Shown: piece after piece, positions 4,870 to 64,000 of the stretch
Layout: the number at the start of each line of letters is the position of its first letter
Numbering within the stretch: position 1 is the stretch's first letter
DNA from: Lucinisca nassula
Taxonomy: Eukaryota; Mollusca; Bivalvia; Lucinida; Lucinidae
DNA length: 64,000 bases
NCBI GenBank assembly: GCA_963580285.1
Contig: OY757026.1
Span: forward strand, 43,827,431-43,891,430
Direction: 5' to 3'
Position numbers and translations under genes: made by a program
Notes under the pieces: model-generated
Databases searched by the model: none
The model's input: the letters and a program-made list of their open reading frames with translations, nothing else
Told to the model about the DNA's origin: nothing

Positions 4870-4934
4870 GGCCCATATTGTTTGCAACCATGCCTTTTTG
4901 TCTGATCCTATAGGAGCTACAAACAATATGGGCC
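4870..4934. other. Forward-to-reverse orientation switch 1
   Basis: The satellite changes strand here. GGCCCATATTGTTTG at 4870-4884 is matched by its reverse complement CAAACAATATGGGCC at 4920-4934. Between them the forward monomer is cut short after CATGCCTTTTT and is followed by GTCTGATCCTATAGGAGCTA. The shared string GTCTGATCCT (4900-4909) recurs at the other forward-to-reverse switch near 47026. Confidence 0.9.
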
Positions 4935-5569
4935 CAGTTATACAGATCCTGTAGGAGTAGTTTTATAACCTTTTAACTTTAAAAGGCAAGGTTGCAAACA
5001 ATATGGGCCCAGATTAGACAGCTCCTGTAGGAATAGTGTGATAACGTTTTAACTTTAAAAGTTATGGCTGCAAACAATATGGGCCCAGCTCAGACAGCTC
5101 CTGCAGGAGTGGTTTGGTAACCTTTTATGTTTAAAAGTTATGGTTGCAAACAATATGGGCCCAGATCAGACAGCCCCTGTAGGAGTAGCTTGATAACCTT
5201 TAAACTTCAAAAGGCATGGTTGAAAACAATATGGGCCCAGATCAGACAGCTCCTGTAGGAGTAGTTTGATAACATTTTAACATTAAAAGTTATGGCTACT
5301 AACAATATGGGCCCAGATCAGACAGTTCCTGTAGGAGTAGATTGATAACCTTTTAACTTTAAAAGACAAGGCTGCAAACAATATGGGCCCAGATCAGACA
5401 GCTCCTATAGGAGTAGTTTGATAACCTTTTAACTTTAAAAGTTATGTCTGCAAACAATATGGGCCCAGATCAGACAGCTCCAGTAAGAGTAGTTTGATAA
5501 CCTTTTAACTTTAAAAGTTATGGCTTCAAACAATATGGGCCCAGATCAGACAGCTCATGTAGGAGTAGT
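4912..5569 (-). repeat. 76-bp satellite array, reverse block 1a
   Basis: About 8-9 monomers of the same satellite read on the minus strand (plus-strand marks AACAATATGGGCCCAGATCA, GTAGGAGTAGTTTGATAACC). The block is interrupted at 5570 by a non-satellite insertion and continues on the other side in the same orientation, so 4912-22342 was originally one reverse block. Confidence 0.95.
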
Positions 5570-5574
5570 TTTAT

Positions 5575-5913
5575 TTGTCTAAATCGCGACGGAAATAAGG
5601 GCGAGGATTGTGGCCACGTAAAGTCGATTTAAGCCCCCCCAGTGGAAATCTTCCACTGACCGTTCCAAGGCGGCTCTTCTGTGGCGATTTATTTATGTTG
5701 TTGTTTGTTACTTACTGTGTGTATCACTTGTGTCTTTTGGTTTTGGATGGTCATATGGCCATTTTGTGGGAAAGTAACTGTCCTTATGGCCTTCCTTTGT
5801 TTAGGTTTCCATTATGGTCTGGTTGCTTAATGTTTGTATTTCTTTCCCTTTGGTGTCTTTTATGGGTGGAGTTAGTTAATTGTATCAATTCCTGATCTTT
5901 GTTTTACTTCTAC
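5575..5913. mobile_element. Non-satellite insertion of about 339 bp, probable small dispersed element
   Basis: This is unique sequence within the window, flanked on both sides by reverse-orientation satellite. The pentamer TTTAT at 5570-5574 recurs at 5914-5918, which may be a target-site duplication. It is short and AT-rich, and the right copy is followed by one extra A, so this is uncertain. The left part is CpG-containing, with a run of seven C at 5634-5640 followed by a perfect hairpin. The right two thirds are T-rich. There is no poly(A) tail, no terminal inverted repeat and no hammerhead core. An open frame of 95 codons crosses it, but the product is only a T-rich, hydrophobic translation with no domain I recognise. 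It could be a SINE-like or other small element, or a fragment of a larger one. I do not recognise the family. Confidence 0.5.
5641..5657. other. Perfect 7-bp hairpin in the 5.6-kb insertion
   Basis: AGTGGAA at 5641-5647 is followed by the loop ATC and by TTCCACT at 5651-5657, a perfect stem directly after a run of seven C. It may be a structural part of the inserted element. No T-run follows it. Confidence 0.6.
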
Positions 5914-7020
5914 TTTATAAACCTTTTAACTTTAAAAGTTAAGGTTGCAGACAATATGGGCCCAGATCAGACAGCTCCTGTAGGGGTAGTTATATAACCT
6001 TTTAACTTTAAAAGTTATGGCTGCAAACAATATGGGCCCAGATCAGACAGCTCCTGTAGGAGTAGTTTGATAACATTTTAACTTAAAAAGATAAGGCTGA
6101 CAACAGTATGTGCCCAGATCAGACAGCTCCTGTAGGAATAGTTTGATAACCTTTTAACTTTAAAAGTTATGGCTGCAAACAATATGGGCCCAGATCAGAC
6201 AGCTCCTGTAGGAGTAGTTTGATAACCTTTTAACTTTAAAAGGTATGGCTTCAAACAATATCGGTCCAGATCGGACAGCTCCGATAGGAGTAGTTTGATA
6301 ACCTTTTAACTTTAAAAGTTAGGCTGAAAACAATATGGGCCCAGATCAGACAGCTCCCGTAGGAGTAGTTTGATAACCTTCAACTTTAAAAGTAATGGCT
6401 GCAAACAATATGGGCCCAGATCGGACAGCTCCTGTAGGAGTAGTTTCATAACCTTTTAACTTTAAAAGTTATGGTTGCAAACAATATGGGCCCATATCAG
6501 ACAGCTCCTGAAGGAGTAGTTTGATAACTTTTTAACTTTAAAAGGCATGGTTGCAAACAACATGATCCCAGATCAGACAGCTTCTGTAGGAGTAGTTTAA
6601 TAACATTTTAACTTTAAACGTTATGGCTGCAAACAATATGGGCCCAGATCAGACAGCACCTGTAGGAGTAGTTTGATAACCTCCTAACTTTAAAAGACAA
6701 CTCTGTAAACAATATGGGCCCAGATCAGACAGCTCCTGGAGGAATAGTTTGACAGCCTTTTAACTTTATAAGTTATGGCTGCAAACAATATGGGCCCATA
6801 TCAGACAGCTCCTGTAGGAGTAGTTTGATAACCTTTTAACTTTGAAAGTCATGGTGGCGAAAAATATGGGACCAGATCAGACAGCTCCTGTAGGAGTAGT
6901 TTGATAACCTTTTAACTTTAAAGTTATGGCTGCAAACAATATGGCCCCAGATCAGACAGCTCCTGTAGGACTAGTTTGATAACCTTTTAACTTTAAAAGT
7001 AATGGCTGCAAACAATATGA

Positions 7021-10000
7021 GCCGAGATCACACAGCTTCTGTAGGAGTAGTTTGAATACCTTTTAACTTTAAATGTTATGGTTGCAAACAATATGGGCCC
7101 AGATCAGACAGCTCCTGTAGGAGTAGTTTGATAACCTTTTAATTGTAAAAGGCATTGCTGCAAACAATATGGGCCCAGATCCGACAGTAGTTTGATAACC
7201 TTTTAACTTTAAAAGGCATGGCTGCAAACAATATGGGCCCAGATCAGACAGCTCCTGTAAGAGTAGTTTGATAAACTTTTAACTTTAAAACTTATGGCTG
7301 CAAACAATCTGGGCCCAGAGCAGACAGCTCCTGTAGGAGTAGTTTGATAACCTTTTAACTTTAAAAGTTATGGCTGCAATCAATATGGGCCCAGATCAGA
7401 CAGCTCCTGTAGGAGTAGATTGATAACCTTTTAGCTTTAAAAGTTAAAGCTGCAAACAATATGGGCCCAGAACAGACATCTCCTGTAGGAGTAGTTTAAT
7501 AACCTTCTAACTTTAAAAGTTATGGCTGCAAACAATATGGGCCCAGATCAGACAGCTCCTGTAGGAGTAGTTTGATAAAAAGTTATGGCTGCAAACAATA
7601 TGGGTCCAGATCAGTCAGCTCCTGTAGGAGTATTTTGATAACACATGAACTTTAAAAGGCATGGTTGCAAACAATATGGGCCCAGATCAGACAGCTCCTG
7701 TAGTAGTAGTTTGATAACCTTTAACTTTAAAAGCTATGGCTGCAAATAATATGGGCCCAGATCAGACAGCTCCTGTAGGAGAAGTTTGATAACCTTTTAA
7801 CTTTAAATGACATTGACTGAAAACAATAAGGGCCCAGATCATATAGCTTCTGTAGGAGTAGTTTTATAACCATTGAACTTTAAAAGTTATGGCTGCAAAC
7901 AATATGGGCCAAGGTCAGACAGCTCCAGTAGGAGTAGTTTGATAACCTTTTAACTTTAAAAGTTATGGTTGCAAACAATATGGGTCCAGATCAGACAGCT
8001 CCTGAAGGAGTAGTTTGTTAACCTTTTAAGTTTAAAAGGCATGGTTGCAAACAATATGGGCCCAGATCAGACAGCTCCTGTAGGAGTAGTTTGATAACCT
8101 TTTAACTTTAAAAGGCAAGGTTGCAAACAATATGGGCCAAGATCAGACTGCTCCTGTAGGGGTAGTTTTATAACCTTTTAACTTTAAAAGTTATGGCTGC
8201 AAACAATATGGGCCCAGATCTGACAGCTCCTTTAGGAGCAGTTTGATAACCTTTTAACTTTAAAAGTAATGGTTGCAAACAATATGGGCCCAGATCAGAC
8301 AGCTCCTATAGGAGTAGTTTGATAAACTTTTTATTTTAAAAGGCATGGCTGCAAACAATATGGGCCCAGGTCAGACAGCTCCTGTAGGAGTAGTATGATA
8401 ACCTTTTAACTTTGAAAGTCATGGTGGCAAACAATATGGGCCCAGATCAGACAGCTCCTGTAGGAGTAGTTTTATGACCTTTTAACTTTAAAAGTAATGG
8501 CTGCAAACAATATGAGCCAAGATCACACAGCTTCTGTAGGAGTAGTTTGAATAACTTTTAACTTTAAATGTTATGGTTGCAAACAATATGGGCCCAGATC
8601 AGACAGCTCCTGTAGGAGTAGTTTGATAACCTTTTAATTGTAAAAGGCATTGCTGCAAACAATATGGGCCCAGATCAGACAGAAGTTTGATAACCTTTTA
8701 ACTTTAAAAGGCATGGCTGCAAACAATATGGGCCCAGATCAGACAGCTCCTGTAAGAGTAGTTTGATAATCTTTTAACTTTAAAAGTTATGGCTGCAAAC
8801 AATATGGGCCCAGAGCAGACAGCTCCTGTAGGAGTAGTTTGATAACCTTTTAACTTTAAAAGTTATGGCTGCAAAAAATATGGGCCCAGATCAGACAGCT
8901 CCTGTAGGAGTAGATTGATAACCTTTTAGCTTTAAAAGTTAAAGCTGCAAACAATATGGGCCCAGAACAGACATCTCCTGTAGGAGTAGTTTGATAACCT
9001 TTTAACTTTAAAAATTATGTCTGCAAACAATAGAGGCCACGATATGACAGCTCCTGTAGGAGTAGTTTGATAACCTTTTAACTTTAATAGTTATGGTTGC
9101 AAACAATATGGGCCCAGATCAGACAGCTCCTGAAGGAGTAGTTTGTTAACCTTTTAAGTTTAAAAGGCATGGTTGCAAACAATATGGGCCCAGATCAGAC
9201 AGCTCCTGTAGGAGTAGTTTGATAACCTTTAAACTTTTAAGCGCAAGGTTGAAAACAATATTGGCCCAGATCAGACAGCTCCTGTAGGAGTAGTTTGATA
9301 ACCTTTTAACTTTAAAAGTTATGGCTGCAAACAATAAGGGCCCAGATCTGACAGCTCCTTTAGGAGCAGTTTGATAACCTTTTAACTTTAAAAGTAATGG
9401 TTGCAAACAATATGGGCCCAGATCAGACAGCTCCTATAGGAGTAGTTTGATAAACTTTTTATTTTAAAAGGCATGGCTGCAAACAATATGGGCCCAGGTC
9501 AGACAGCTCCTGTAGGAGTAGTTTGATAACCTTTTAACTTTGAAAGTCATGGTGGCAAACAATATGGGCCCAGATCAGACAGCTCCTGTAGGAGTAGTTT
9601 GATAACCTTTTAACTTTAAAAGTTATGGCTGCAAACAATATGGCCCAAGATTAGAAAGCTCCTGTAGGAGTAGTTTGATAACCTTTTAACTTTAAAAGTA
9701 ATGGCTGCAAACAATATGAGCCGAGATCACACAGCTTCGGTAGGAGTAGTTTGAATACCTTTTAACTTTAAATGTTATGGTTACAAACAATATGGGCCCA
9801 GATCAGACAGCTCCTGTAGGAGTAGTTTGATAACCTTTTAATTGTAAAAGGCATTGCTGCAAACAATATGGGCCCAGATCAGACAGAAGTTTGATAACCT
9901 TTTAACTTTAAAAGGCATGGCTGCAAACAATATGGGCCCAGATCAGACAGCTCCTGTAAGAGCAGTTTGATAAACTTTTAACTTTAAAAGTTATGGCTGC

Positions 10001-10215
10001 AAACAATATGGGCCCAGAGCAGACAGCTCCTGTAGGAGTAGTTTGATAACCTTTTAACTTTAAAAGTTATGGCTGCAAAAAATATGGGCCCAGATCAGAC
10101 AGCTCCTGTAGGAGTAGATTGATAACCTTTTAGCTTTAAAAGTTAAAGCTGCAAACAATATGGGCCCAGAACAGACATCTCCTGTAGGAGTAGTTTGATA
10201 ACCTTTTAACTTTAA
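7021..10215 (-). repeat. Sub-block present three times inside the 7.97-kb unit
   Basis: A run of about six monomers is found at 7021-7500, 8521-8995 and 9725-10200. Its first landmark is GATCACACAGCTTC (7026, 8521) or its variant at 9725. Its last is AAGTTAAAGCTGCAAAC (7441, 8936 and the equivalent near 10140). The offsets are 1495 and 1204 bp. It reappears in copy 2 of the large unit at about 15.0-15.5 and 17.46-17.97 kb, so this sub-block was amplified before the 7.97-kb duplication. Confidence 0.8.
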
Positions 10216-10334
10216 AAATTATGTCTGCAAACAATAGGGGCCACGATATGACAGCTCCTGTAGGAGTAGTTTGATAACCTTTTAACTTTAAAAGTTATGG
10301 TTGCAAACAATATGGGCCCAGATCAGACAGCTCC

Positions 10335-13010
10335 TGTAGGAGTAGTTTGATAACCTTTTTACTTTAAAGGCATGGTTGCAAACAATATGGGCCCAGATCA
10401 GACAGCTCCTGTAGGAGTAGTTTGATAACCTTTTAACTATAAAAGTTATGGTTGCAAACAATATGGGCCCCGATCAGACAGCTCCTGTAGGAGTAGTGTG
10501 ATAACCTTTTTACTTTAACAATTATGGCTGCAAACAATATGGGCCCAGCTCAGACAGCTCCTGTAGGAGTAGTTTGGTAACCTTTTATCTTTAAAAGTTA
10601 TGGTTGCTAACAATATGGGCCCAGATCAGACAGCTACTGTAGGAGTAGTTTGATAACCTTTTAACTTCAAAAGGCATGGTTGAAAACAATATGGGCCCAG
10701 ATCAGACAGCTCCTGTAGGAGTAGTTTGCTTACATTTTAACTTCAAAAGGCATGGTTGCAAACAATATGGGCCCAGATAAGACAGCTCCTGTAGGAGTAG
10801 TTTCATAACATTTTAACTTTAAAAGTTATGGCTACAAACAATATGGGCCCAGATCAGACAGCTCCTGTAGGAGTAGTTTGATAACCTTTTAACTTTAAAA
10901 GACATGGCTGTAAACACTATGGGCCCAGATCAGACAGCTCATGTTGGAGAAGTTTGATAACCTTTTAACTTTAAAAGTTATGGCTGCAAACAATATGGGC
11001 CCCGATTGGAGAGCTCCTGTAGGAGAAGTTTGATAAAAAGTTATGGCTGCAAACAATATGGGCCAAGATCAGACAGCTCCTGTACGAGTAGTTTGATAAC
11101 CTTTTAACTTTAAAAGGCACGGTTAGAAACAATATGGGCGCAGATCAGACATCTCCTGTAGGAGTAGTTTGATAACCATTTAACTTTAAAAGTTATGGCT
11201 GCAAACAATATGGGCACAGACCAGACAGCTCCTGAAGGAGTAGTTTGATAACCTTTTAACTTTAAAAGTTATGGCTGCAAACAATATGGGCCCAGATCAG
11301 ACAGCTCCTGTACGAGTAGTTTAATAACCTTTTATCTTTAAAAGGCACGGTTAGAAACAATATGAGCTCAGATCAGACAGCTCCTGTAAGAGTAGTTTGA
11401 TAACCTTTTAACTTTAAAAGGCATGGTTGCAAACAATATGGGCCCAGATCGGACAGCTCCTGTAGGAGTAGTTTGATAACCTTTTAACTTTAAAAGTAAT
11501 GGTTGTAAACAATATGAGCTCAGATTAGACAGCTCCTGTAGAAGTAGTTTGATAACCTTTTAACTTTAAAAGGCATGGTTGCAAACAATATAGGCCCAGA
11601 TCAGACAGCTCCTGTAGGAGTAGTTTGATAACCTTTTTACTTTAAAAGGCATGGTTGCAAACAATATGGGCCAAGTTCAGACAGCTCCTGTAATAGTAGT
11701 TTGATAACCTTTTGACTTTAAAAGTTATGGTTGCAAACAATATGGGCCAAGATCAGACAGCTCCTCTAAGAGTAGTTTTATAACCTTTTAACTCTAAAAG
11801 TTATGGCTGCAAACAATATGGGCAAAGATCAGATAGCTCCTGCAGGTGTAGTTTGATAACCTTTTATCTTTAAAAGGCATGGTTGTAAACAATATTGCCC
11901 AGATCAGACAGCTCCCTAGGAGTAGTTTGATAACCTTTTTCCTTTAAATGCATGGTTGCAAACAATATGGGCCCAGATCAGAAGCTCCTGTAGGAGTAGT
12001 TTGATAACCTTTTAACTATAAAAGATATGGTTGCAAACAATATGGGCCCCGATCAGACAGCTCCTGTAGGAGTAGTGTGATAACCTTTTAACTTTAAAAA
12101 TTATGGCTGCAAACAATATGGGCCCAGCTCAGACAGCTCCTGTAGGAGTAGTTTGGAAACCTTTTATTTTTAAAAGTTATGGTTGCTAACAATATGGGCC
12201 CCGATCAGACATTTCCTGTAGGAGTAGTTTTATAACCTTTTAACTTCAAAAGGCATGGTTGAAAACAATATGGGCCCAGATCAGACAGCTCCTGTAGGAG
12301 TAGTTTGATAACATTTTAACTTCAAAAGGCATGGTTGGAAACAATATGGGCCCAGATAAGACAGCTCCTGTAGGAGTAGTTTCATAACATTGTAACTTTA
12401 AAAGTTATGGCTACAAACAATATGGGCCCAGATCAGACAGCCCCTGTAGGAGTAGTTTGATAACCTTTTTACTTAAAAGGCATGGTTGCAAACAATATGG
12501 GCCCAGATCAGACAGCTCCTGTAGGAGTAGTTTGATAACCTTTTAACTATAAAAGTTATGGTTGCAAACAATATGGGCCCCGATCAGACAGCTCCTGTAG
12601 GAGTAGTGTGATAACCTTTTAACTTTAACAATTATGGCTGCAAACAATATGGGCCCAGCTCAGACAGCTCCTGTAGGAGTAGTTTGGTAACCTTTTATCT
12701 TTAAAAGTTATGGTTGCTAACAATATGGGCCCAGATCAGACAGCTACTGTAGGAGTAGTTTGATAACCTTTTAACTTCAAAAGGCATGGTTGAAAACAAT
12801 ATGGGCCCAGATCAGACAGCTCCTGTAGGAGTAGTTTGCTTACATTTTAACTTCAAAAGGCATGGTTGCAAACAATATGGGCCCAGATAAGACAGCTCCT
12901 GTAGGAGTAGTTTCATAACATTTTAACTTTAAAAGTTATGGCTACAAACAATATGGGCCCAGATCAGACAGCTCCTGTAGGAGTAGTTTGATAACCTTTT
13001 AACTTTAAAA
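10335..13010 (-). repeat. Duplicated ~0.57-kb sub-block, 2110 bp apart
   Basis: Monomers at about 10335-10900 are repeated at about 12445-13010. Landmarks are TAACCTTTTTACTT at 10351/12461 and CAGATCAGACAGCTACTGT at 10622/12732, both 2110 bp apart. A related, more diverged run lies at about 11.93-12.45 kb. The pair is carried along inside both copies of the 7.97-kb unit. Confidence 0.8.
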
Positions 13011-14160
13011 GTAATGGTTGCAAACAATATGGGCTCAGATTAGACAGCTTCTGTAGGAGTAGTTTGATAACCTTTTAACTTTAAAAGTTATGGCTGCAAA
13101 CAATAAAGGCCCAGATCAGACAGCCCCTGTAGGAGTAGTTTGATAAAATTTGAACTTTCAAAAGCATGGTTTCAAACCAAATGGGCCCATATCAGACAGC
13201 TCCTGTAGGAGTAGTTTGATATCCTTTTAACTTTAAAAGTTATGGCTGCAAACAATATGGGCCCAGATTAGACAGCTCCTGTAGAAATAGTTTGATAACC
13301 TTTTAATTGTAAAAGGCATGGCTGCAAACAATATGGGCCCAGATCAGACAGCTCCAGTAGGAGTAGTTTGATAACTTTTTAATTTTAAAAGTTATGGCTG
13401 CAAACAATGTGGGCCCAGATCAGACAGCTCCTGTAGGAGAAGTTTGATAACCTTTGAACTTTAAAATAACGCTGTAAACAATATGGGCTCAGAACAGACA
13501 ACTCCTGTAGGAGTAGTTTTATAACCTTTTAACTTTGAAAGTTATGGCTGCAAACAATATGGGCCCAGGTCAGACAGCTCCAGTAGGAGTAGTTTGATAA
13601 CCTTTTAACTTTAAAAGTTATGGCTGCAAACAATATGGGCCCAGAACAGACAGCTCCTGTAGGAGTAGTTTGATAACCTTTTAACTTTAAAAGTTATGGC
13701 TGCAAACAATGTGGGCACAGATCAGACAGCTCCTGTAGGAGTACTTTGATAACCTTTTAACATTAAAAGTTATGGGTACAACCAATATGGGCCCAGATCA
13801 GACAGCTCCTGTAGGAGTAGTTTGATAACCTTTTAACTTTAAAAGGCATGGCTACAAACAATATGGGCCCATATCAGACAGCTTCTGTAGGAGTAGTTTG
13901 ATAACATTTTAACTTAAAAAGTTATGGCTGCAAACAATATGGGCGCAGATCAGACAGCTCCTGTAGGAGTAGTTTTTTAACCTTTTAACTTAAAAAGTTA
14001 TGGCTGCAAACAATGAGGACCCAGATAAGACCGCTCCTGTATGAGTAGTTTGTAAAAACGTTTTGGCTGCAAACAATATGGGCCCAGGTCAGACAGCTCC
14101 TGTAGGAATAGTTTGATAACATTTGAACTTTAAAAGGCATGGTTGCAAACAATATGGGCC

Positions 14161-17100
14161 CTGATCAGACAGCTCCTGTAGGAGTAGTTTGATAACCTTT
14201 TAACTTTAAAAGGTATGGCTTCAAACAATATCGGTCCAGATCGGACAGCTCCGATAGGAGTAGTTTGATAACCTTTTAACTTTAAAAGTTAGGCTGAAAA
14301 CAATATGGGCCCAGATCAGACAGCTCCCGTAGGAGTAGTTTGATAACCTTCAACTTTAAAAGTAATGGCTGCAAACAATATGGGCCCAGATCGGACAGCT
14401 CCTGTAGGAGTAGTTTCATAACCTTTTAACTTTAAAAGTAATGGTTGCAAACAATATGGGCCCATATCAGACAGCTCCTGAAGGAGTAGTTTGATAACTT
14501 TTTAACTTTAAAAGGCATGGTTGCAAACAACATGATCCCAGATCAGACAGCTTCTGTAGGAGTAGTTTAATAACATTTTAACTTTAAACGTTATGGCTGC
14601 AAACAATATGGGCCCAGATCAGACAGCACCTGTAGGAGTAGTTTGATAACCTCCTAACTTTAAAAGACAACTCTGTAAACAATATGGGCCCAGATCAGAC
14701 AGCTCCTGGAGGAATAGTTTGACAGCCTTTTAACTTTATAAGTTATGGCTGCAAACAATATGGGCCCATATCAGACAGCTCCTGTAGGAGTAGTTTGATA
14801 ACCTTTTAACTTTGAAAGTCATGGTGGCGAACAATATGGGACCAGATCAGACAGCTCCTGTAGGAGTAGTTTGTTAACCTTTTAACTTTAAAAGTTACGG
14901 CTGCAAACAATATGGCCCCAGATCAGACAGCTCCTGTAGGACTAGTTTGATAACCTTTTAACTTTAAAAGTAATGGCTGCAAACAATATGAGCCGAGATC
15001 ACACGGCTTCTGTAGGAGTAGTTTGAATACCTTTTAACTTTAAATGTTATGGTTGCAAACAATATGGGCCCAGATCAGACAGCTCCTGTAGGAGTAGTTT
15101 GATAACCTTTTAATTGTAAAAGGCATTGCTGCAAACAATATGGGCCCAGATCCGACAGTAGTTTGATAACCTTTTAACTTTAAAAGGCATGGCTGCAAAC
15201 AATATGGGCCCAGATCAGACAGCTCCTGTAAGAGTAGTTTGATAAACTTTTAACTTTAAAACTTATGGCTGCAAACAATCTGGGCCCAGAGCAGACAGCT
15301 CCTGTAGGAGTAGTTTGATAACCTTTTAACTTTAAAAGTTATGGCTGCAATCAATATGGGCCCAGATCAGACAGCTCCTGTAGGAGTAGATTGATAACCT
15401 TTTAGCTTTAAAAGTTAAAGCTGCAAACAATATGGGCCCAGAACAGACATCTCCTGTAGGAGTAGTTTAATAACCTTCTAACTTTAAAAGTTATGGCTGC
15501 AAACAATATGGGCCCAGATCAGACAGCTCCTGTAGGAGTAGTTTGATAAAAAGTTATGGCTGCAAACAATATGGGTCCAGATCAGTCAGCTCCTGTAGGA
15601 GTATTTTGATAACACATGAACTTTAAAAGGCATGGTTGCAAACAATATGGGCCCAGATCAGACAGCTCCTGTAGTAGTAGTTTGATAACCTTTAACTTTA
15701 AAAGCTATGGCTGCAAATAATATGGGCCCAGATCAGACAGCTCCTGTAGGAGAAGTTTGATAACCTTTTAACTTTAAATGACATTGACTGAAAACAATAA
15801 GGGCCCAGATCATATAGCTTCTGTAGGAGTAGTTTTATAACCATTGAACTTTAAAAGTTATGGCTGCAAACAATATGGGCCAAGGTCAGACAGCTCCAGT
15901 AGGAGTAGTTTGATAACCTTTTAACTATAAAAGTTATGGCTGGAAACAATATGGGCCGCGATCAGACAGCTCCTGTAGGAGTAGTTTTACAACCTTTTAA
16001 CTTTAAAAGTTATGGTTGCAAACAATATGGGCCCAGATCAGACAGCTCCTGAAGGAGTAGTTTGTTAACCTTTTAAGCTTAAAAGGCATGGTTGCAAACA
16101 ATATGGTCCCAGATCAGACAGCTCCTGTAGGAGTAGTTTGATAACCTTTAAACTTTTAAGCGCAAGGTTGAAAACAATATTGGCCCAGATCAGACAGCTC
16201 CTGTAGGAGTAGTTTGATAACCTTTTAACTTTAAAAGGCAAGGTTGCAAACAATATGGGCCAAGATCAGACAGCTCCTGTAGGGGTAGTTTTATAACCTT
16301 TTAACTTTAAAAGTTATGGCTGCAAACAATATGGGCCCAGATCTGACAGCTCCTTTAGGAGCAGTTTGATAACCTTTTAACTTTAAAAGTAATGGTTGCA
16401 AACAATATGGGCCCAGATCAGACAGCTCCTGTAAGAGTAGTTTGATAATCTTTTAACTTTAAAAGTTATGGCTGCAAACAATATGGGCCCAGAGCAGACA
16501 GCTCCTGTTGGAGTAGTTTGATAACCTTTTAACTTTAAAAGTTATGGCTGCAAAAAATATGGGCCCAGATCAGACAGCTCCTGTAGGAGTAGATTGATAA
16601 CCTTTTAGCGTTAACAGTTAAAGCTGCAAACAATATGGGCCCAGAACAGACATCTCCTGTAGGAGTAGTTTGATAACCTTTTAACTTTAAAAATTATGTC
16701 TGCAAACAACAGAGGCCACGATATGACAGCTCCTGTAGGAGTAGTTTGATAACCTTTTAACTTTAATAGTTATGGTTGCAAACAATATGGGCCCAGATCA
16801 GACAGCTCCTGAAGGAGTAGTTTGTTAACCTTTTAAGTTTAAAAGGCATGGTTGCAAACAATATGGGCCCAGATCAGACAGCTCCTGTAGGAGTAGTTTG
16901 ATAACCTTTAATCTTTTAAGCGCAAGGTTGAAAACAATATTGGCCCAGATCAGACAGCTCCTGTAGGAGTAGTTTGATAACCTTTTATCTTTAAAAGGCA
17001 AGGTTGCAAACAATATGGGCCAAGATCAGACAGCTCATGAAGGAGTAGTTTGATAACCTTTTAACTTTAAAAGTTATGGCTGCAAACAATAAGGGCCCAG

Positions 17101-20100
17101 ATCTGACAGCTCCTTTAGGAGCAGTTTGATAACCTTTTAACTTTAAAAGTAATGGTTGCAAACAATATGGGCCCAGATCAGACAGCTCCTATAGGAGTAG
17201 TTTGATAAACTTTTTATTTTAAAAGGCATGGCTGCAAACAATATGGGCCCAGGTCAGACAGCTCCTGTAGGAGTAGTTTGATAACCTTTTAACTTTGAAA
17301 GTCATGGTGGCAAACAATATGGGCCCAGATCAGACAGCTCCTGTAGGAGTAGTTTGATAACCTTTTAACTTTAAAAGTTATGGCTGCAAACAATATGGCC
17401 CAAGATTAGAAAGCTCCTGTAGGAGTAGTTTGATAACCTTTTAACTTTAAAAGTAATGGCTGCAAACAATATGAGCCGAGATCACACAGCTTCGGTAGGA
17501 GTAGTTTGAATACCTTTTAACTTTAAATGTTATGGTTACAAACAATATGGGCCCAGATCAGACAGCTCCTGTAGGAGTAGTTTGATAACCTTTTAATTGT
17601 AAAAGGCATTGCTGCAAACAATATGGGCCCAGATCAGACAGAAGTTTGATAACCTTTTAACTTTAAAAGGCATGGCTGCAAACAATATGGGCCCAGATCA
17701 GACAGCTCCTGTAAGAGCAGTTTGATAAACTTTTAACTTTAAAAGTTATGGCTGCAAACAATATGGGCCCAGAGCAGACAGCTCCTGTAGGAGTAGTTTG
17801 ATAACCTTTTAACTTTAAAAGTTATGGCTGCAAAAAATATGGGCCCAGATCAGACAGCTCCTGTAGGAGTAGATTGATAACCTTTTAGCTTTAAAAGTTA
17901 AAGCTGCAAACAATATGGGCCCAGAACAGACATCTCCTGTAGGAGTAGTTTGATAACCTTTTAACTTTAAAAATTATGTCTGCAAACAATAGGGGCCACG
18001 ATATGACAGCTCCTGTAGGAGTAGTTTGATAACCTTTTAACTTTAAAAGTTATGGTTGCAAACAATATGGGCCCAGATAAGACAGCTCCTGTAGGAGTAG
18101 TTTCATAACATTTTAACTTTAAAAGTTATGGCTACAAACAATATGGGCCCAGATCAGACAGCTCCTGTAGGAGTAGTTTGATAACCTTTTTACTTTAAAG
18201 GCATGGTTGCAAACAATATGGGCCCAGATCAGACTGCTCCTGTAGGAGTAGTTTGATAACCTTTTAACTATAAAAGTTATGGTTGCAAACAATATGGGCC
18301 CCGATCAGACAGCTCCTGTAGGAGTAGTGTGATAACCTTTTTACTTTAACAATTATGGCTGCAAACAATATGGGCCCAGCTCAGACAGCTCCTGTAGGAG
18401 TAGTTTGGTAACCTTTTATCTTTAAAAGTTATGGTTGCTAACAATATGGGCCCAGATCAGACAGCTACTGTAGGAGTAGTTTGATAACCTTTTAACTTCA
18501 AAAGGCATGGTTGAAAACAATATGGGCCCAGATCAGACAGCTCCTGTAGGAGTAGTTTGCTTACATTTTAACTTCAAAAGGCATGGTTGCAAACAATATG
18601 GGCCCAGATAAGACAGCTCCTGTAGGAGTAGTTTCATAACATTTTAACTTTAAAAGTTATGGCTACAAACAATATGGGCCCAGATCAGACAGCTCCTGTA
18701 GGAGTAGTTTGATAACCTTTTAACTTTAAAAGACATGGCTGTAAACACTATGGGCCCAGATCAGACAGCTCATGTTGGAGAAGTTTGATAACCTTTTAAC
18801 TTTAAAAGTTATGGCTGCAAACAATATGGGCCCCGATTGGAGAGCTCCTGTAGGAGAAGTTTGATAAAAAGTTATGGCTGCAAACAATATGGGCCAAGAT
18901 CAGACAGCTCCTGTACGAGTAGTTTGATAACCTTTTAACTTTAAAAGTAATGGTTGTAAACAATATGGGCACAGACCAGACAGCTCCTGAAGGAGTAGTT
19001 TGATAACCTTTTAACTTTAAAAGTTATGGCTGCAAACAATATGGGCCCAGATCAGACAGCTCCTGTACGAGTAGTTTAATAACCTTGTATCTTTAAAAGG
19101 CACGGTTAGAAACAATATGAGCTCAGATCAGACAGCTCCTGTAAGAGTAGTTTGATAACCATTTAACTTTAAAAGGCATGGTTGCAAACAATATGGGCCC
19201 AGATCGGACAGCTCCTGTAGGAGTAGTTTGATAACCTTTTAACTTTAAAAGTAATGGTTGTAAACAATATGAGCTCAGATTAGACAGCTCCTGTAGAAGT
19301 AGTTTGAAAACCTTTTAACTTTAAAAGGCATGGTTGCAAACAATATAGGCCCAGATCAGACAGCTCCTGTAGGAGTAGTTTGATAACCTTTTTACTTTAA
19401 AAGGCATGGTTGCAAACAATATGGGCCAAGTTCAGACAGCTCCTGTAATAGTAGTTTGATAACCTTTTGACTTTAAAAGTTATGGTTGCAAACAATATGG
19501 GCCAAGATCAGACAGCTCCTCTAAGAGTAGTTTTATAACCTTTTAACTCTAAAAGTTATGGCTGCAAACAATTAGGGCAAAGATCAGATAGCTCCTGCAG
19601 GTGTAGTTTGATAACCTTTTATCTTTAAAAGGCATGGTTGTAAACAATATTGCCCAGATCAGACAGCTCCCTAGGAGTAGTTTGATAACCTTTTTCCTTT
19701 AAATGCATGGTTGCAAACAATATGGGCCCAGATCAGAAGCTCCTGTAGGAGTAGTTTGATAACCTTTTAACTATAAAAGATATGGTTGCAAACAATATGG
19801 GCCCCGATCAGACAGCTCCTGTAGGAGTAGTGTGATAACCTTTTAACTTTAAAAATTATGGCTGCAAACAATATGGGCCCAGCTCAGACAGCTCCTGTAG
19901 GAGTAGTTTGGAAACCTTTTATCTTTAAAAGTTATGGTTGCTAACAATATGAGCCCCGATCAGACATTTCCTGTAGGAGTAGTTTTATAACCTTTTAACT
20001 TCAAAAGGCATGGTTGAAAACAATATGGGCCCAGATCAGACAGCTCCTGTAGGAGTAGTTTGATAACATTTTAACTTCAAAAGGCATGGTTGGAAACAAT

Positions 20101-21930
20101 ATGGGCCCAGATAAGACAGCTCCTGTAGGAGTAGTTTCATAACATTGTAACTTTAAAAGTTATGGCTACAAACAATATGGGCCCAGATCAGACAGCTCCT
20201 GTAGGAGTAGTTTGATAACCTTTTTACTTAAAAGGCATGGTTGCAAACAATATGGGCCCAGATCAGACAGCTCCTGTAGGAGTAGTTTGATAACCTTTTA
20301 ACTATAAAAGTTATGGTTGCAAACAATATGGGCCCCGATCAGACAGCTCCTGTAGGAGTAGTGTGATAACCTTTTAACTTTAACAATTATGGCTGCAAAC
20401 AATATGGGCCCAGCTCAGACAGCTCCTGTAGGAGTAGTTTGGTAACCTTTTATCTTTAAAAGTTATGGTTGCTAACAATATGGGCCCAGATCAGACAGCT
20501 ACTGTAGGAGTAGTTTGATAACCTTTTAACTTCAAAAGGCATGGTTGAAAACAATATGGGCCCAGATCAGACAGCTCCTGTAGGAGTAGTTTGCTTACAT
20601 TTTAACTTCAAAAGGCATGGTTGCAAACAATATGGGCCCAGATAAGACAGCTCCTGTAGGAGTAGTTTCATAACATTTTAACTTTAAAAGTTATGGCTAC
20701 AAACAATATGGGCCCAGATCAGACAGCTCCTGTAGGAGTAGTTTGATAACCTTTTAACTTTAAAAGTAATGGTTGCAAACAATATGGGCTCAGATTAGAC
20801 AGCTTCTGTAGGAGTAGTTTGATGACCTTTTAACTTTAAAAGTTATGGCTGCAAACAATAAAGGCCCAGATCAGACAGCCCCTGTAGGAGTAGTGTGATA
20901 AAATTTGAACTTTCAAAAGCATGGTTTCAAACCAAATGGGCCCATATCAGACAGCTCCTGTAGGAGTAGTTTGATATCCTTTTAACTTTAAAAGTTATGG
21001 CTGCAAACAATATGGGCCCAGATTAGACAGCTCCTGTAGAAATAGTTTGATAACCTTTTAATTGTAAAAGGCATGGCTGCAAACAATATGGGCCCAGATC
21101 AGACAGCTCCTGTAGGAGTAGTTTGATAACTTTTTAATTTTAAAAGTTATGGCTGCAAACAATGTGGGCCCAGATCAGACAGCTCCTGTAGGAGAAGTTT
21201 GATAACCTTTGAACTTTAAAATAACGCTGTAAACAATATGGGCTCAGAACAGACAACTCCTGTAGGAGTAGTTTTATAACCTTTTAACTTTGAAAGTTAT
21301 GGCTGCAAACAATATGGGCCCAGGTCAGACAGCTCCAGTAGGAGTAGTTTGATAACCTTTTAACTTTAAAAGTTATGGCTGCAAACAATATGGGCCCAGA
21401 ACAGACAGCTCCTGTAGGAGTAGTTTGATAACCTTTTAACTTTAAAAGTTATGGCTGCAAACAATGTGGGCACAGATCAGACAGCTCCTGTAGGAGTACT
21501 TTGATAACCTTTTAACATTAAAAGTTATGGGTACAACCAATATGGGCCCAGATCAGACAGCTCCTGTAGGAGTAGTTTGATAACCTTTTAACTTTAAAAG
21601 GCATGGCTACAAACAATATGGGCCCATATCAGACAGCTTCTGTAGGAGTAGTTTGATAACATTTTAACTTAAAAAGTTATGGCTGCAAACAATATGGGCG
21701 CAGATCAGACAGCTCCTGTAGGAGTAGTTTTATAACCTTTTAACTTAAAAAGTTATGGCTGCAAACAATGAGGACCCAGATAAGACCGCTCCTGTATGAG
21801 TAGTTTGTAAAAACGTTTTGGCTGCAAACAATATGGGCCCAGGTCAGACAGCTCCTGTAGGAATAGTTTGATAACATTTGAACTTTAAAAGGCATTGTTG
21901 CAAACAATATGGGCCCTGATCAGACAGCTC
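14161..21930 (-). repeat. Higher-order repeat, ~7.97-kb unit, copy 2
   Basis: Second copy of the unit that starts at about 6190. It ends with the same GGGCCCTGATCAGAC landmark (near 21911) that ends copy 1. Relative to copy 1 it has lost about 290 bp between the points equivalent to 7.9 and 9.1 kb, gained two monomers (152 bp) near 18.06-18.21 kb, and lost one further monomer in the region equivalent to 11 kb. Beyond 21.96 kb the sequence diverges from the copy 1 pattern. Confidence 0.85.
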
Positions 21931-22322
21931 CTGTAGGAGTAGTTTGATAACCTTTTAACTTTAAAAGACAAGGATGCAACAATATGGGCCCAGATCAGAC
22001 AGCTCCTGTAGGAGTAGATTGATAACCTTTTAACTTTAGAAGTAACGGTTGCAAAGAATATGTGCTCAGATCAGACAGCTCCTGTAGGAGTAATTTTATA
22101 ACCTTTTAACTTTAAAAGTTATGGCTGCAAACAATATGGGCCGCGGTCAGACAGCTCCAGTAGGAGTAGTTTGATAACCTTTTAACTTTAAAAGATATGG
22201 CTGCAAACAATATGGGCCCAGATCAGACAGATCCTGTAGGAGTAGTTTTAACTTTTAGGAGTAGTTTTAACCTTTTAACTTTAAAAGTTATGGCTGCAAA
22301 CAATATGGGCCCAGCTCAGACA

Positions 22323-58425: not shown

Positions 58426-60239
58426 TGTCTGATCTTGGCCTATATTGTTTGCAACCATGCCTTTTAAAATAACAAGGTTATCAAACTTCTCCTACAGGAG
58501 CTGAATGATCTGCGCTCATATTGTTTGCAGCCATATTTTTTAAAGTTAAAAGGTTATCAAACTACTCCTACAGGTACCTGTCTGATCTGGGCCCATATTG
58601 TTTGCAACAATAACTTTTAAAGTTAAAAGGTTATCAAACTACTCCTTCAGGAGCCGTCTGAGCTGGGCCCATATTGTTTGCAACCATGCTATTTAAAGTT
58701 AAAAGGTTATCAAACTACTCCTACAGTAGCTGTCTGATCTGGGCCCATATTGTTTGCTACCATAACTTTTAAAGTTAAAAGAATATCAAACTACTCCTAC
58801 AGGGGCTGTCTGATCTGGGCCCATATTGTTTGCAGCCATGCCTTTTAAAGTTAAAATGTTATCAAACTACTCCTACAGGAGCCCTCTGATCTGGGCCCAT
58901 ATTGTTTGCAGCCATAACTTTATATCAAACTACTCTTACAGGTGCCTCTAATCTGGGCCCATATTTGTTTTGTAGCCATAATTTTTAAAGTTCAAAGGTT
59001 ATCAAACTACTCCTACAGGAGCTTCTGATCTGGTCCCATATTGTTTGCAATCATAACATTTAAAGTTAAAAGGATGTCAAATTACTCCTACAGGAGCTGT
59101 CTGATCTTGGCCCATGTTGTTTGCAGCCATAACTTTTAAAGTTGAAGGTTATCAAACTACTCCTACGGGAGCTGTCTGATCTTGACTCATATTGTTTTCA
59201 GCCATAACTTTTAAAGTTAAAAGGTTATCAAACTACTCCTACCGGAGCTGTCCGATCTGGGCCCATATTGTTTGTAACCATAACTTTTAAATTAAAAGGT
59301 TATCAAACTACTCCTACAGGAGCTGTCTGATCTGGGCCCATATTGTTAGCAAACATAACTTTTAAAGTTAAAAGGTTACAAATTTACTCCTACAAGAGCT
59401 GTCTGAACTGGGCCCATATTGTTTGCAGCCATAACTTTTAAAGCTAAAAGGTTATCAAACTACTCCTACAGCAGCTGTCTTATCTGGGCCCATATTTTGC
59501 AGCCAGGCCTTTTACAATTTAAAGGTTATCAAACTACTCCTACAGGAGCTGTCAGATCTGGGCCCATATGTCTGATCTTGGCCCATTTTGTTTGCAGGCA
59601 TGCCTTTTAAAGTTAAAAGGTTATCAAACTACTCCTACAGGAGCTGTCTGATCTGGGCTCATATTGTTTGCAACCATGCATTTTAATGCTAAAAGGTTAT
59701 CAAACTACTAATACAGGAGCTGTCTGATCTGGGCCCATATTGTTTGCAATCATGTCTACTAAAGTTACAAGGTTATCAAACTACTCCTACAGGAGCTTTC
59801 TGATCTGGGCCCATTTTGTTTTCAGCCATGCCTTTTAAAGTTAAAATGTTATCAAACTACTCCTACAGGAGCTGTCTGATATGGGCCCATACTGTTTGCA
59901 GCCATAACTTTTAAAGTTAAAAGGTTATCAAACTACTCCTACAGGAACCTGTCTGCTCTGGGGGCATATTGTTTGCAACCATAACTTTTAAATTAAAAGG
60001 TTATCAAACTACTCCTACAGGAGCTGTCTGATCTGGGCCCATATTTTTGCAGCCATGTCTTTTAAAGTTAAAAGGTTATCAAACTACTACTTCAGGAGCT
60101 GTCTGATCTGGGCCCATATTGTTTGCAACCATGCCTTTTAAAGTTAAAAGGTTATAAAACTACTCCTTCAGGAGCTGTCTGATCTGGGCCCATATTGTTT
60201 GCAACCATAACTTTTAAAGTTAAAAGGTTAAAAAACTAC

Positions 60240-60545
60240 TCCTTTAGGAGCTGTCTGAAATGGTCCCATATTGTTTGCAACCATAACTTTTAAAGTTTAA
60301 AGGTTATCAAACTAATCCTACAGAAGCAGTCTGATCTGGGCCCATATTGTTTTCAACAATGCCTTTTAAAGTTTAAAGGGAATCAAACTACTCCTACAGG
60401 CGCTGTCTGAAATGGTCCCATATTGTTTGCAACCATAACTTTTAAAGTTTAAAGGTTATCAAACTAATCCTACAGAAGCAGTCTGATCTGGGCTCATATT
60501 GTTTGCAACCATGCCTTTTAAAGTTTAAAGGGAATCAAACTACTC
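60240..60545 (+). repeat. Dimer (152 bp) tandem duplication
   Basis: CTGTCTGAAATGGTCCC at about 60251 recurs 152 bp downstream. The monomer with CTACAGAAGCAGTCTGATC follows in each copy. This is a two-monomer unit duplicated once. Confidence 0.8.
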
Positions 60546-61133
60546 CTACAGGAGCTGTCTGATCTGGGCCCATATTGTTTTCAACCATAACTTTTAAAGT
60601 TAAAAGGTTTTCAAACTACTCCTACAGGAGCTGTCTGATCTGGGCTCATATTGTTTGCAGCCATAACTTTTAAAGTTATAATGTAATCAAACTACTCCTA
60701 CAGGATCTGTCTGATCTGGGCTCATATTGTTTCCAACCATGCCTTTTAAAGTTAAAAGGTTATCAAACTACTCCTACAGGAGCTGTCTGATCTGGGCCCA
60801 TATTGTTTGCAACGATAACATTTAAAGTTAAAAGGTTATCAAGATACTCATACAGGAGCTGTCTGATCTGGGCCTATATTGTTTGCAATCATGCTTTTTA
60901 AAGTTAAAAGGTAATCAAACTACTCCTACAGGAGCTGTCTGATCTGGGTCCATATTGTTTGCAGCCATAACTTTTAAAGTTGAAAGGTTATCAAACTACT
61001 CCTACAGGAGCTGTCTGATCTGGGCTCATATTATTTGCAGCCATAACTTTTAAAGTTAAAAGGTTATGAAACTACTCCTACAGGAGCTGTCTGATCTCGG
61101 CGCATATTGTTTGCAACCATGCCTTTCAAAGTT

Positions 61134-61516
61134 TTATATTTTACTTTTGGTCCTTTGAGATCGGCGTGAATATTCTGAGAAATCAGAAATAAATTATTGG
61201 TTTAGACTCATATTCTAGACAGGTTTTTAATTATTTGGACCCCATTTTGATTTATATCAGTCTTTGAATCGACTGCCTTTTCGAAATTCGCAAAATTGCA
61301 GTATGTTTCTTCTGGCTTTCTTTGCCGGATCATTACAGGGTCACTGATGAGGCTTTATTAGCCGAAACTACGTAGTATGACCCATCTCCTTTCTTATGAA
61401 TGTTTTCATTGCTCTTAAAGGAACTCATTTTTGATTTTTATTTGCCTTCACTGCAGCTGGTGTTGTGCCGTGTGGCGGCCGTAAAACGTCTCCCCGTACA
61501 TCAACCATAGTGCAGT
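61134..61516 (+). repeat. Retrozyme unit 1 (383 bp)
   Basis: The first full unit starts at TTATATTTTACTTTTGG. It holds the hammerhead at 61338-61383, then an AT-rich stretch, then a GC-rich end with CTGCAGCTGG and a small GCCG-TGTGG-CGGC hairpin (61467-61479). The array begins about 244 nt upstream of the cleavage site, so insertion did not start at the ribozyme cut. Confidence 0.88.
61338..61383 (+). ncRNA. Type I hammerhead ribozyme, copy 1
   Basis: Stem I is GGGTCA (61338-61343) paired with TGACCC (61378-61383), a perfect 6 bp. The core CTGATGA is at 61344-61350. Stem II is GGCT (61351-61354) paired with AGCC (61360-61363) around the loop TTATT. GAAA is at 61364-61367. Stem III is minimal: ACT (61367-61369) pairs with AGT (61374-61376) around the loop ACGT. 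The cleavage triplet is GTA, so the predicted cut is after A61377. All invariant core positions are present. A further short outer pairing, GGA (61327-61329) with TCC (61387-61389), could give the peripheral helix typical of active type I forms, but this is weak. Confidence 0.9.
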
Positions 61517-61899
61517 TTATATTTTACTTTTGGTCCTTTGAGATCGGCGTGAATATTCTGAGAAATCAGAAATAAATTATTGGTTTAGACTCATATTCTA
61601 GACAGGTTTTTAATTATTTGGACCCCATTTTGATTTATATCAGTCTTTGAATCGACTGCCTTTTCGAAATTCGCAAAATTGCAGTATGTTTCTTCTGGCT
61701 TTCTTTGCCGGATCATTACAGGGTCACTGATGAGGCTTTATTAGCCGAAACTACGTAGTATGACCCATCTCCTTTCTTATGAATGTTTTCATTGCTCTTA
61801 AAGGAACTCATTTTTGATTTTTATTTGCCTTCACTGCAGCTGGTGTTGTGCCGTGTGGCGGCCGTAAAACGTCTCCCCGTACATCAACCATAGTGCAGT
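61517..61899 (+). repeat. Retrozyme unit 2 (383 bp)
   Basis: Second full unit, apparently identical to unit 1 over its whole length. The unit-to-unit join, GTGCAGTTTATATTTTAC, is seamless, as expected when a circular RNA is copied more than once. Confidence 0.88.
61721..61766 (+). ncRNA. Type I hammerhead ribozyme, copy 2
   Basis: Same sequence and structure as the ribozyme in unit 1, displaced by exactly 383 bp. The predicted cut is after A61760. Cleavage here and in unit 1 would release a 383-nt RNA. Confidence 0.9.
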
Positions 61900-62282
61900 T
61901 TATATTTTACTTTTGGTCCTTTGAGATCGGCGTGAATATTCTGAGAAATCAGAAATAAATTATTGGTTTAGACTCATATTCTAGACAGGTTTTTAATTAT
62001 TTGGACCCCATTTTGATTTATATCAGTCTTTGAATCGACTGCCTTTTCGAAATTCGCAAAATTGCAGTATGTTTCTTCTGGCTTTCTTTGCCGGATCATT
62101 ACAGGGTCACTGATGAGGCTTTATTAGCCGAAACTACGTAGTATGACCCATCTCCTTTCTTATGAATGTTTTCATTGCTCTTAAAGGAACTCATTTTTGA
62201 TTTTTATTTGCCTTCACTGCAGCTGGTGTTGTGCCGTGTGGCGGCCGTAAAACGTCTCCCCGTACATCAACCATAGTGCAGT
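61900..62282 (+). repeat. Retrozyme unit 3 (383 bp)
   Basis: Third full unit, apparently identical to units 1 and 2. It ends in the same TAGTGCAG before the start of the partial unit. Confidence 0.88.
62104..62149 (+). ncRNA. Type I hammerhead ribozyme, copy 3
   Basis: Complete core and stems as in copy 1, with the predicted cut after A62143. Confidence 0.9.
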
Positions 62283-62592
62283 TTATATTTTACTTTTGGT
62301 CCTTTGAGATCGGCGTGAATATTCTGAGAAATCAGAAATAAATTATTGGTTTAGACTCATATTCTAGACAGGTTTTTAATTATTTGGACCCCATTTTGAT
62401 TTATATCAGTCTTTGAATCGACTGCCTTTTCGAAATTCGCAAAATTGCAGTATGTTTCTTCTGGCTTTCTTTGCCGGATCATTACAGGGTCACTGATGAG
62501 GCTTTATTAGCCGAAACTACGTAGTATGACCCATCTCCTTTCTTATGAATGTTTTCATTGCTCTTAAAGGAACTCATTTTTGATTTTTATTT
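62283..62592 (+). repeat. Retrozyme unit 4, truncated (310 bp)
   Basis: Fourth unit, complete through the ribozyme but ending at GATTTTTATTT. It lacks the final GC-rich part of about 73 nt (GCCTTCACTGCAG... to TGCAG). It joins AAAAGG of the satellite. The missing part shows that the inserted DNA was not a whole number of units. Confidence 0.88.
62487..62532 (+). ncRNA. Type I hammerhead ribozyme, copy 4
   Basis: Complete core and stems as in copy 1, with the predicted cut after A62526. It is intact although its unit is truncated 60 nt further on. Confidence 0.9.
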
Positions 62593-64000
62593 AAAAGGTT
62601 ATCAACTTACTCCTACAGGAGCTGTCTGATCTGGGCCCATATTGTTTGCAGCCACGCCTTTTAAAGTTAAAAGGTTATCAAATTACTCCTACAGGGGCTA
62701 TCTGATCTGGGCCTATATTGTTTGCAACCATGCCTTTAAAAGTTACAAGGTTATCAAACTTCTCCTAAAGGAGCTGTCTGATCTGGGCCCATACTGTTTG
62801 CAGCCATATTTTTTTAAAGATAAAAGGTTATCAAACTACTCCTACAGGAACCTGTCTGATCTTGGCCCATATTGTTTGCAACAATAACTTTTAAAGTTAA
62901 AAGATTATCAAACTACTCCTTCAGGAGCTGTCTGATCAGGGCCCATATTATTTGCAATCATGCCTTTAAAGTTAAAAGGTTATCAAACAACTCCTACAGG
63001 AGCTGTCTGATCTGGGTCCATATTGTTTGCAGCCATAACTTTTAAAGTTAAAAGGTTATCAAACTACTCCTACAGGAGCTGCCTGATCTGATCCCATATT
63101 GTTTGCAGCCATGCCTTTTAAAGTTAAAAAAGGTTATCAAACTACTCCTACAGGAGCCGTCTGATCTGGGCCCATATTGTTTGCAACCATAACTTTATAT
63201 CAAACTACTCTTACAGGTGTTTCTGATCTGGGCCAATATTGTTTGTAGCCATAACTTTTAAAGTAAAATGTTTATAAAACTACTCCTACAGGAGCTGTCT
63301 GATCTGGGCCATAATGTTTGCAACCATAACTTTTAAAGTTAAAAGGATATCACACTACTCCTACAGGAGCTGTCTGATCTGGGCCCATATTGTTTGCAGC
63401 CATAACTTTTAAAGTTTAAAGGTTTCCAATTTACTCCTACAAGAGCTGTCTGAACTGGGCCCATATTGTTTGCAGCCATAACTTTTAAAGTTAAAAGGTT
63501 ATCAAACTGCTTCTACAGCAGCTGTCTGATCTTGGCCCATATTTTTGCAGTCATGCCTTTTAAGATTAAAAGGTTATCAAACTACTCCTACAGGAGCTGT
63601 CTGATCTTGCCCCATTTTGTTTGCAGGCATAACTTTTAAATTTAAAAGGTTATCAAACGTCTCCTACAGGAGCTGTCTGAGCTGGGCCCATATTGTTTGC
63701 AACCATGACCTTTAAAGTTAAAAGGTTATCAAACTACTAATACAGGAGCTGTCTGAAATAGGCCCATATTGTTTGCAACCATAACTTTTAAAGTTTAAAG
63801 GTTATCAAACTAATCCTACAGGAGCTGTCTGATCTGGGCCAATATTGTTTGCAACCATGCCTTTTAAAGTCAAAAAGGTTATGAAACAACTCCTACAGGA
63901 GCTGCCTGATCTGGGCCCATATTGTTTGCAGCCATAACTTTTAAAGTTAAAAGGTTATCAAACTACTCCTACATGACCTATCTGATCTGGGCCCATATTG
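62593..64000 (+). repeat. 76-bp satellite array, forward block 3 continued
   Basis: About 18-19 forward monomers matching 54946 onward at an offset of 7647. They include the AAGTTAAAAAAGG variant and the shortened ATAACTTTATATC monomer. No gene is seen, and the array continues past the window. Confidence 0.96.

Follow-up and report, generated by a model that had tools for sequence, protein, structure and literature searches.

The non-LTR retrozymes of metazoans are described as short head-to-tail repeats that carry a type I hammerhead ribozyme (~350–390 bp in mussels). Their GC content is below 50%, they contain no open reading frame, they number thousands of copies, and they share the genome with Penelope-like elements (PLEs) (Cervera and de la Pena 2020, PMC7229834). 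Target-site duplications, when present, are given there as longer than 4 bp, and are hence not a strict requirement. A review from the same group (PMC7761336) describes the metazoan repeats as having no conserved motif that points to an enzyme and no apparent promoter. In both papers it has been proposed that a circle serves as the template of reverse transcription, and PLEs are named as candidates for the enzyme; the kind of system considered here is therefore known. Hammerheads have also been reported in the W elements of schistosomes (PMC8490949). For PAc, a PLE with a hammerhead, the enzyme is reported to start internally, 111–118 nt into the ORF, and to cut both strands. Its hammerhead cuts at +26, and only with the protein present; RNA is needed to +172; unprocessed RNA is the main template, and hammerhead mutants were still inserted (PMC11167929). 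The main text of that paper contains neither 'retrozyme' nor 'circular', and no paper joining retrozymes to internal initiation was found among those listed by searches of an open-access library.

The array described here lies near the right end of the window, by which we mean the whole stretch of 64,000 nucleotides of Lucinisca nassula DNA that was analysed. Tandem Repeats Finder reports a period of 383, 3.8 copies and 100% matches at 61133–62592. By direct comparison the period is maintained across the same interval, and the 383-bp unit is repeated head to tail 3.81 times; alignment of the three complete units with the partial fourth (310 bp) shows 0 mismatches. The unit has 146/383 G+C (38% GC). 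No ORF of at least 50 aa is found in the array, which is thus non-coding and encodes no reverse transcriptase with GIY-YIG. In all these respects the locus resembles the metazoan retrozymes, especially those of mussels, and a 383-bp unit with four hammerheads falls inside their size class of 150–450 bp tandem repeats. The units and their surroundings are as follows.

61134–61516, + strand: retrozyme unit 1 (383 bp), from repeat finder and direct comparison; the 5' end of the array is 61133/61134, with one T ambiguous.
61517–61899, + strand: retrozyme unit 2, from repeat finder and direct comparison.
61900–62282, + strand: retrozyme unit 3, from repeat finder and direct comparison.
62283–62592, + strand: partial unit 4 (unit positions 1–310); 62592 is the 3' end common to most arrays.
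59569–61132, + strand: 76-bp satellite, left flank (the target).
62593–64000, + strand: 76-bp satellite, right flank, in continuous phase with the left flank and with no target-site duplication.

The satellite covers nearly all of the window around the array, in agreement with the original prediction of an array embedded in satellite DNA; the only stretches of at least 12 bp outside it are 4899–4919, 5575–5919 and the array itself. The 76-bp satellite is merely the landing site of the window copy. Its strand flips at about 4900, 22300, 47000 and 48800, and the minus-strand block 5920–22248 shows its best self-resemblance at a shift of 7,755 bp (75.5% identical; shifts of 1,000–12,000 scanned), which is a higher-order duplication. 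The stretch 5575–5919 is a 345-bp SINE-like dispersed element within the satellite. Retrozymes have inserted into this element at L028 (and L027), L038 and L051; it also follows an array of the 261-bp family described below at L016, and is found inside the retrozyme fragment of L074.

Each copy carries on the + strand GGGTCA-CTGATGA-GGC(TTTATTA)GCC-GAA-ACT(ACGT)AGT-A^TGACCC, the complete layout of a type I hammerhead. A type I descriptor (stem I of at least 5 bp, CUGANGA, stem II, GAA, stem III starting A-U, H17, stem I') gives exactly four + strand matches in the window (0-based 61343, 61726, 62109 and 62492), confirming the intact cores claimed for the 3.8 copies, and 0 matches on the − strand.

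61338–61383, + strand: hammerhead ribozyme 1, type I (unit 205–250), from the descriptor; predicted cut after 61377 (unit 244).
61721–61766, + strand: hammerhead ribozyme 2, from the descriptor; predicted cut after 61760.
62104–62149, + strand: hammerhead ribozyme 3, from the descriptor; predicted cut after 62143.
62487–62532, + strand: hammerhead ribozyme 4, from the descriptor; predicted cut after 62526.

Rfam models run over the window return nothing at the gathering threshold. The best permissive hammerhead match is to the type III model, at 20.3 bits against a threshold of 48.5 and with non-standard pairs in the alignment; our explanation for such scores is the short stems and the missing loop-loop contact. 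The excised motif has an unconstrained minimum free energy of −14.0 kcal/mol, which is not that of the active fold (−10.9 kcal/mol). Both the scores and the energies would suit an ordinary SINE or satellite in which a hammerhead-like motif is inert or has arisen by chance. This explanation is highly improbable, given that the descriptor finds 0 matches in 20 Mb of first-order Markov sequence modelled on the unit, that the motif is constrained in the source lineage (see below), and that the core of a second family differs in its stems and palindromic loop with the fold kept. The covariance-model check foreseen by the original prediction thus gives a divided answer, with Rfam scores below threshold on one side and our own descriptor matches, the selection and the kept fold of the second family on the other; these last support a real, predicted ribozyme. 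Circular folding of the unit is better than 150 shuffled controls for the + strand (z −2.8) and no better for the − strand (z −0.3). The palindromic loop III can pair with that of a second copy, with a computed −12.9 kcal/mol for the 10-nt dimer. A short stem III with a palindromic tetraloop is also found in the hammerhead repeats of amphibians (newt, axolotl), which are described as better as a dimer (PMC7229834); the likeness is one of description, and unlike those repeats the stem III seen here can form 3 bp. In 89 hammerhead copies loop II is shortened by one base and frequently reads GGCTTTTTAGCC or GGCTTATTAGCC.

The original prediction took the unit for a retrozyme family, and a genome-wide search finds it far from confined to the window: the exact core motif occurs in 23,240 dispersed copies in the 2.93-Gb genome, with 0 for the reversed pattern, and exact-pattern scans of viral contigs and of GTDB genomes each give 0. 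A second, related family with a 261-bp unit, found beside some 383-bp arrays, has 24,629 copies of its core genome-wide. This core has changes in the stems and AGCT in place of ACGT in loop III, again a palindrome, with the fold kept; the family scores 17.6 bits to an Rfam hammerhead model, below threshold, and some of its old copies (L014 and L028) have lost the loop III palindrome. With 23,240 and 24,629 motif copies, the element is therefore a dispersed retrozyme of the metazoan type. The arrays are scattered insertions whose length ranges from less than one unit to 8 and whose 3' phase is fixed. The first 100 listed motif matches form 77 clusters, of which 62 hold one intact motif, 11 two, 2 three and 2 five, units with a mutated motif being uncounted; the gaps within these clusters are exactly 383 in 16/23. 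Units are identical within the array in 4/39 arrays, that of the window among them, which supports recent activity of the family. The window array was inserted recently and represents a young copy of a mobile element that is highly abundant and has no protein of its own.

Some further relationships were seen in these loci. Degenerate sequences at about 5600–7650 of L025 are 71–75% identical to the 261-bp family and are perhaps a third family. The same locus contains a fold-back sequence that is similar to a portion of the 76-bp satellite; the satellite may have descended from a fold-back element. L015/L016 and L027/L028 each look like a single insertion in duplicated flanking sequence.

The ends of the arrays were tabulated for the window and 39 other loci. 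These 40 places have the highest scores among 1,587 candidates, and the 18 of the 261-bp family were drawn from the 40 best of 5,890; both samples are therefore biased to young copies. The right end of the 383-bp arrays falls at unit 305–316 in 35/37 readable cases and at 309 or 310 in 28/37, the exceptions being L040 (299) and L044 (234). The 37 include three extra fragments in the same loci (L013b, L013c and L014b); for L010, L013c and L022 the end was placed at 310 by eye (aligner: 320, 319 and 368, with 310 in an earlier alignment of L022), those of L018, L020 and L024 were set from 311 to 310, and those of L030, L041, L046 and L047 lie beyond the examined sequence. L027, the same insertion as L028, was left out of the end analyses and of the count of singleton and shared splits, although both were counted in the unit, haplotype and selection analyses; L015, a second copy of the L016 locus, was left out of all of these. 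Since the main sample is best-scoring, a check sample was chosen by position and not by score, as 12 isolated + strand matches along C1 from the first 100 listed, other isolated ones being passed over; here 11 of the 11 readable arrays end at unit 309–315. The right end of the 261-bp arrays is at 187–200 in 19/19 (17/19 at 187–192, the other two at 194 and 200), a spot homologous to that of the 383-bp family and just before the same conserved domain, which occurs in the window three times.

61444–61516, + strand: conserved domain, unit 311–383, copy 1; hairpin from ~unit 317, the proposed reverse-transcriptase anchor 3' of the start site.
61827–61899, + strand: conserved hairpin domain, copy 2.
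62210–62282, + strand: conserved hairpin domain, copy 3; no further copy follows the last unit, which is also the case in most arrays.

The 5' ends are scattered, with a preference for the hairpin: 17/40 lie within unit 345–383 (p = 1.2e-7; L047 and L062, cut by the sequence edge, are omitted from the 5'-end statistics). None of 58 ends in both families lies within 3 nt of the hammerhead cut, which argues against run-off on cleaved linear monomers, as this would pile ends there, although very short inserts (66 bp) of the run-off type may have escaped the searches. A narrower cluster at unit 363–369 (11/40, p = 1e-10), with enrichment at the homologous spot of the 261-bp family (4/18, p = 0.008), bears on a different version of the same retrozyme, in which the template is a linear uncleaved multimer transcribed from a start at ~363–369 to a 3' end in the T-rich 296–310, with unit 311–362 as promoter. 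T-runs do precede unit 310, the sole PLE studied in vitro used unprocessed RNA (PMC11167929), and some arrays are heterogeneous at common sites. The 5' cluster, however, is explained as well by a reverse transcriptase stalling in the hairpin. Arrays reach 8 units, yet 62 of the 77 clusters from the first 100 listed matches hold a single intact motif, and linear parents would therefore rarely be able to give long daughters. Conservation of the hammerhead would be needless with a linear template, yet the hammerhead is conserved, and the compensatory changes in the domain fit an RNA hairpin better than a promoter. We consider a linear template unlikely.

Sequence differences among units were compared within and between arrays (123 units in 40 arrays, with matches below 90% identity or spanning less than ~250 unit positions dropped). 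Arrays differ by characteristic alleles, which are mostly common to all of an array's own units. Mean divergence between arrays is 3.4%, and divergence within the array is lower in 37/39 arrays. Six common alleles (site 300, in a T-run, was left out) are fixed in 46/58 array-site cases; the 12/58 discordant cases compare with a mean of 114 and a minimum of 98 in 300 permutations. The presence of one haplotype per array suggests that each was made as if copied from one circle. Given the 12/58 discordant cases, some arrays are therefore not plain copies of one circle, or have been altered later; mixed templates, later conversion and recurrent mutation are candidates for this main blemish. The 13 arrays of at least 4 units contain 90 singleton against 6 shared splits, a near-star relationship, as expected if the units had been born together.

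Unequal exchange keeps end phases and homogenises units. It is thus conceivable that an inserted monomer grew at the DNA level, by unequal crossing-over or through circular DNA, with gene conversion keeping the units alike, and the window copy does lie within long satellite DNA. Stepwise duplication would give a nested pattern and not a near-star, the same 3' end recurs at unrelated sites and in two families, and selection is specific to the hammerhead and the hairpin; amplification of this sort is quite improbable.

This selection is seen when changes confined to a single unit, taken as post-insertion, are compared with alleles fixed within an array, taken as derived from the source. Single-unit changes are spread evenly, with 32 in the hammerhead, 33 in domain 311–383 and 177 elsewhere (5.7, 5.3 and 5.6 per kb). 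The distinct array-fixed alleles number 3, 0 and 81, respectively, giving Fisher p values of 0.005 (hammerhead), 1.5e-5 (domain) and 7e-7 (the two combined), with the qualification that fixed alleles are not fully independent among related arrays. Of the three fixed alleles in the hammerhead, two (230C>T and 247A>G) still allow a G-U pair and one (219G>A) disrupts a pair. From the contrast between the two classes of change, the hammerhead and the hairpin therefore seem to be needed for propagation: they appear constrained in the transposing lineage and free to mutate once inserted.

The conserved domain, 73 nt long in the 383-bp family and 72 nt in the 261-bp family, folds as one hairpin across both families, with 97.8% of cells paired compared with 31–63% for slid partners. 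Three hairpin pairs have changed on both sides, a number reached by 299/500 shuffles, whereas 0/500 reach the covariation score or the number of cells with changes on both sides; the structure was derived from the same alignment that was used for covariation. The changes mostly separate the two families and therefore represent few events.

The junctions with the target can be read directly at seven sites with a known target repeat (the window, L051, L028, L076, L063, L013 and L038). In the window the satellite flanks are in phase, with one T uncertain. No duplication of at least 3 bp is seen at any of the seven, L038 being poorly aligned across the joint, and the joints show either small gaps or filler of at most 8 bases. 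Exact duplications of at least 3 bp are present at 2/49 junctions compared with a shuffled mean of 1.1. The insertions thus look nearly blunt. A target consensus was considered and rejected, as the information content of the positions beside the 3' junction is low (no more than 0.18 bits), G being rare at +2 (2/49). Hairpin-shaped targets were rejected as well. Several empty sites, including the palindromic satellite site of the window, resembled inverted repeats whose loop holds the insertion; at the three arm lengths compared, arm complementarity at 34 sites gives P = 0.82, 0.17 and 0.08 against flank controls, and the ranks of fold energy give a KS p of 0.14 (35 sites).

We propose that the element is a metazoan-type (non-LTR) retrozyme, inserted by multi-round reverse transcription of an RNA circle made by the hammerhead, with an internal start beside an enzyme-binding hairpin; to this reading, drawn from sequence patterns, we give a probability of about two in three. 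The cutting, the circle, the enzyme and the priming are the steps that we infer. Genomic copies would be transcribed, and the hammerhead would cut the RNA after unit 244, perhaps as a dimer, because loop III is a palindrome. The 383-nt monomer would then be closed into a circle. A reverse transcriptase would bind the hairpin at unit 311–383 and start internally just 5' of it (~310), primed by the cut target DNA; the number of circuits would vary, the enzyme frequently falling off within the hairpin, and the cDNA would be joined to the target nearly blunt. The fixed internal end, the 3' hairpin that is hardly ever copied last and the multi-round arrays fit an enzyme docking on the hairpin of the circle.

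Several PLE families are present in the genome, with open frames of 763, 764 and 820 aa. GIY-YIG matches number 138 (150 of 746 candidates scored), several of them in open frames; the translated PLE loci contain the reverse-transcriptase motif, and one PLE has 10 copies that are 99–100% identical over 400 bases. Tandem and head-to-head PLE pairs also occur (L068–L079 and other GIY-YIG places). A loose search of 12 GIY-YIG loci with 1.5-kb flanks for the hammerhead or hairpin yields 2 string matches without the fold. Retrozyme fragments near a PLE are seen only at L074 and L076 among these 12 loci, both hairpin-free. Neither core motif nor hairpin domain is found in a tandem PLE junction of 1.3 kb, and PLE 3' ends show no resemblance by eye to the retrozyme ends. 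Two apparent links between the elements count as no more than leads. At L074 a truncated PLE lies head-to-head with a retrozyme fragment as in a chimera, and a TA repeat is found at both PLE ends; a nested insertion is therefore simpler. At L076 the retrozyme fragment sits in an older repeat near the PLE end. A PLE enzyme is the most likely candidate for the source of the reverse transcriptase, and the spacing of the elements can be compared with PAc. By our arithmetic from PMC11167929, the distance from cut to start is 85–92 nt in PAc, against 66 nt (383-bp family) and 89 nt (261-bp family) here, and the RNA beyond the start is 54–61 nt, against 73 and 72 nt.

On a broader and more tentative view, metazoan retrozymes may be the 'SINEs' of PLEs: the circle would carry a landing pad for the enzyme, consisting of hammerhead, internal start and anchoring hairpin, and a telomerase-like enzyme might print tandem arrays in one pass because the circular template has no end, so that new satellite-like DNA would be seeded directly by an RNA circle. 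A passage from RNA to tandem DNA in a single step is thereby suggested. At the level of sequence, the two families described here provide evidence for a fixed internal start, an adjacent conserved hairpin and arrays from single circles, and the proposal that animal retrozymes spread via RNA circles is now directly testable. The evidence from the fixed start, the hairpin and the haplotypes looks new to us.

Compared with the metazoan retrozymes, to which the families are likened by description, the elements presented here differ in that no target-site duplication is seen, and in having a fixed end of reverse transcription and a conserved hairpin. Satellite DNA, taken in the working sense of few loci and arbitrary end phase, differs from these dispersed insertions with a fixed 3' phase. 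Viroid-like RNAs with ribozymes on both strands differ from an array with 0 minus-strand hammerheads, although both strands are not required of all viroid-like RNAs. The plant LTR retrozymes are likewise hammerhead retroelements thought to be spread by circular RNA, but have a type III hammerhead, a length of 600–800 nt, an LTR, PBS and PPT, and a 4-bp duplication (PMC7229834), in contrast to the type I hammerhead without duplication here. The order of elements is closest to that of the hammerhead PLEs as reported for PAc (PMC11167929): a hammerhead, an internal start tens of nucleotides later, and then a stretch of RNA that is required in PAc and conserved here. The start lies in an AU-rich linker beside the hairpin here and in an AC-rich stem-loop in PAc; in contrast with PAc, neither reverse transcriptase nor endonuclease is encoded here, and the proposed template is a circle.
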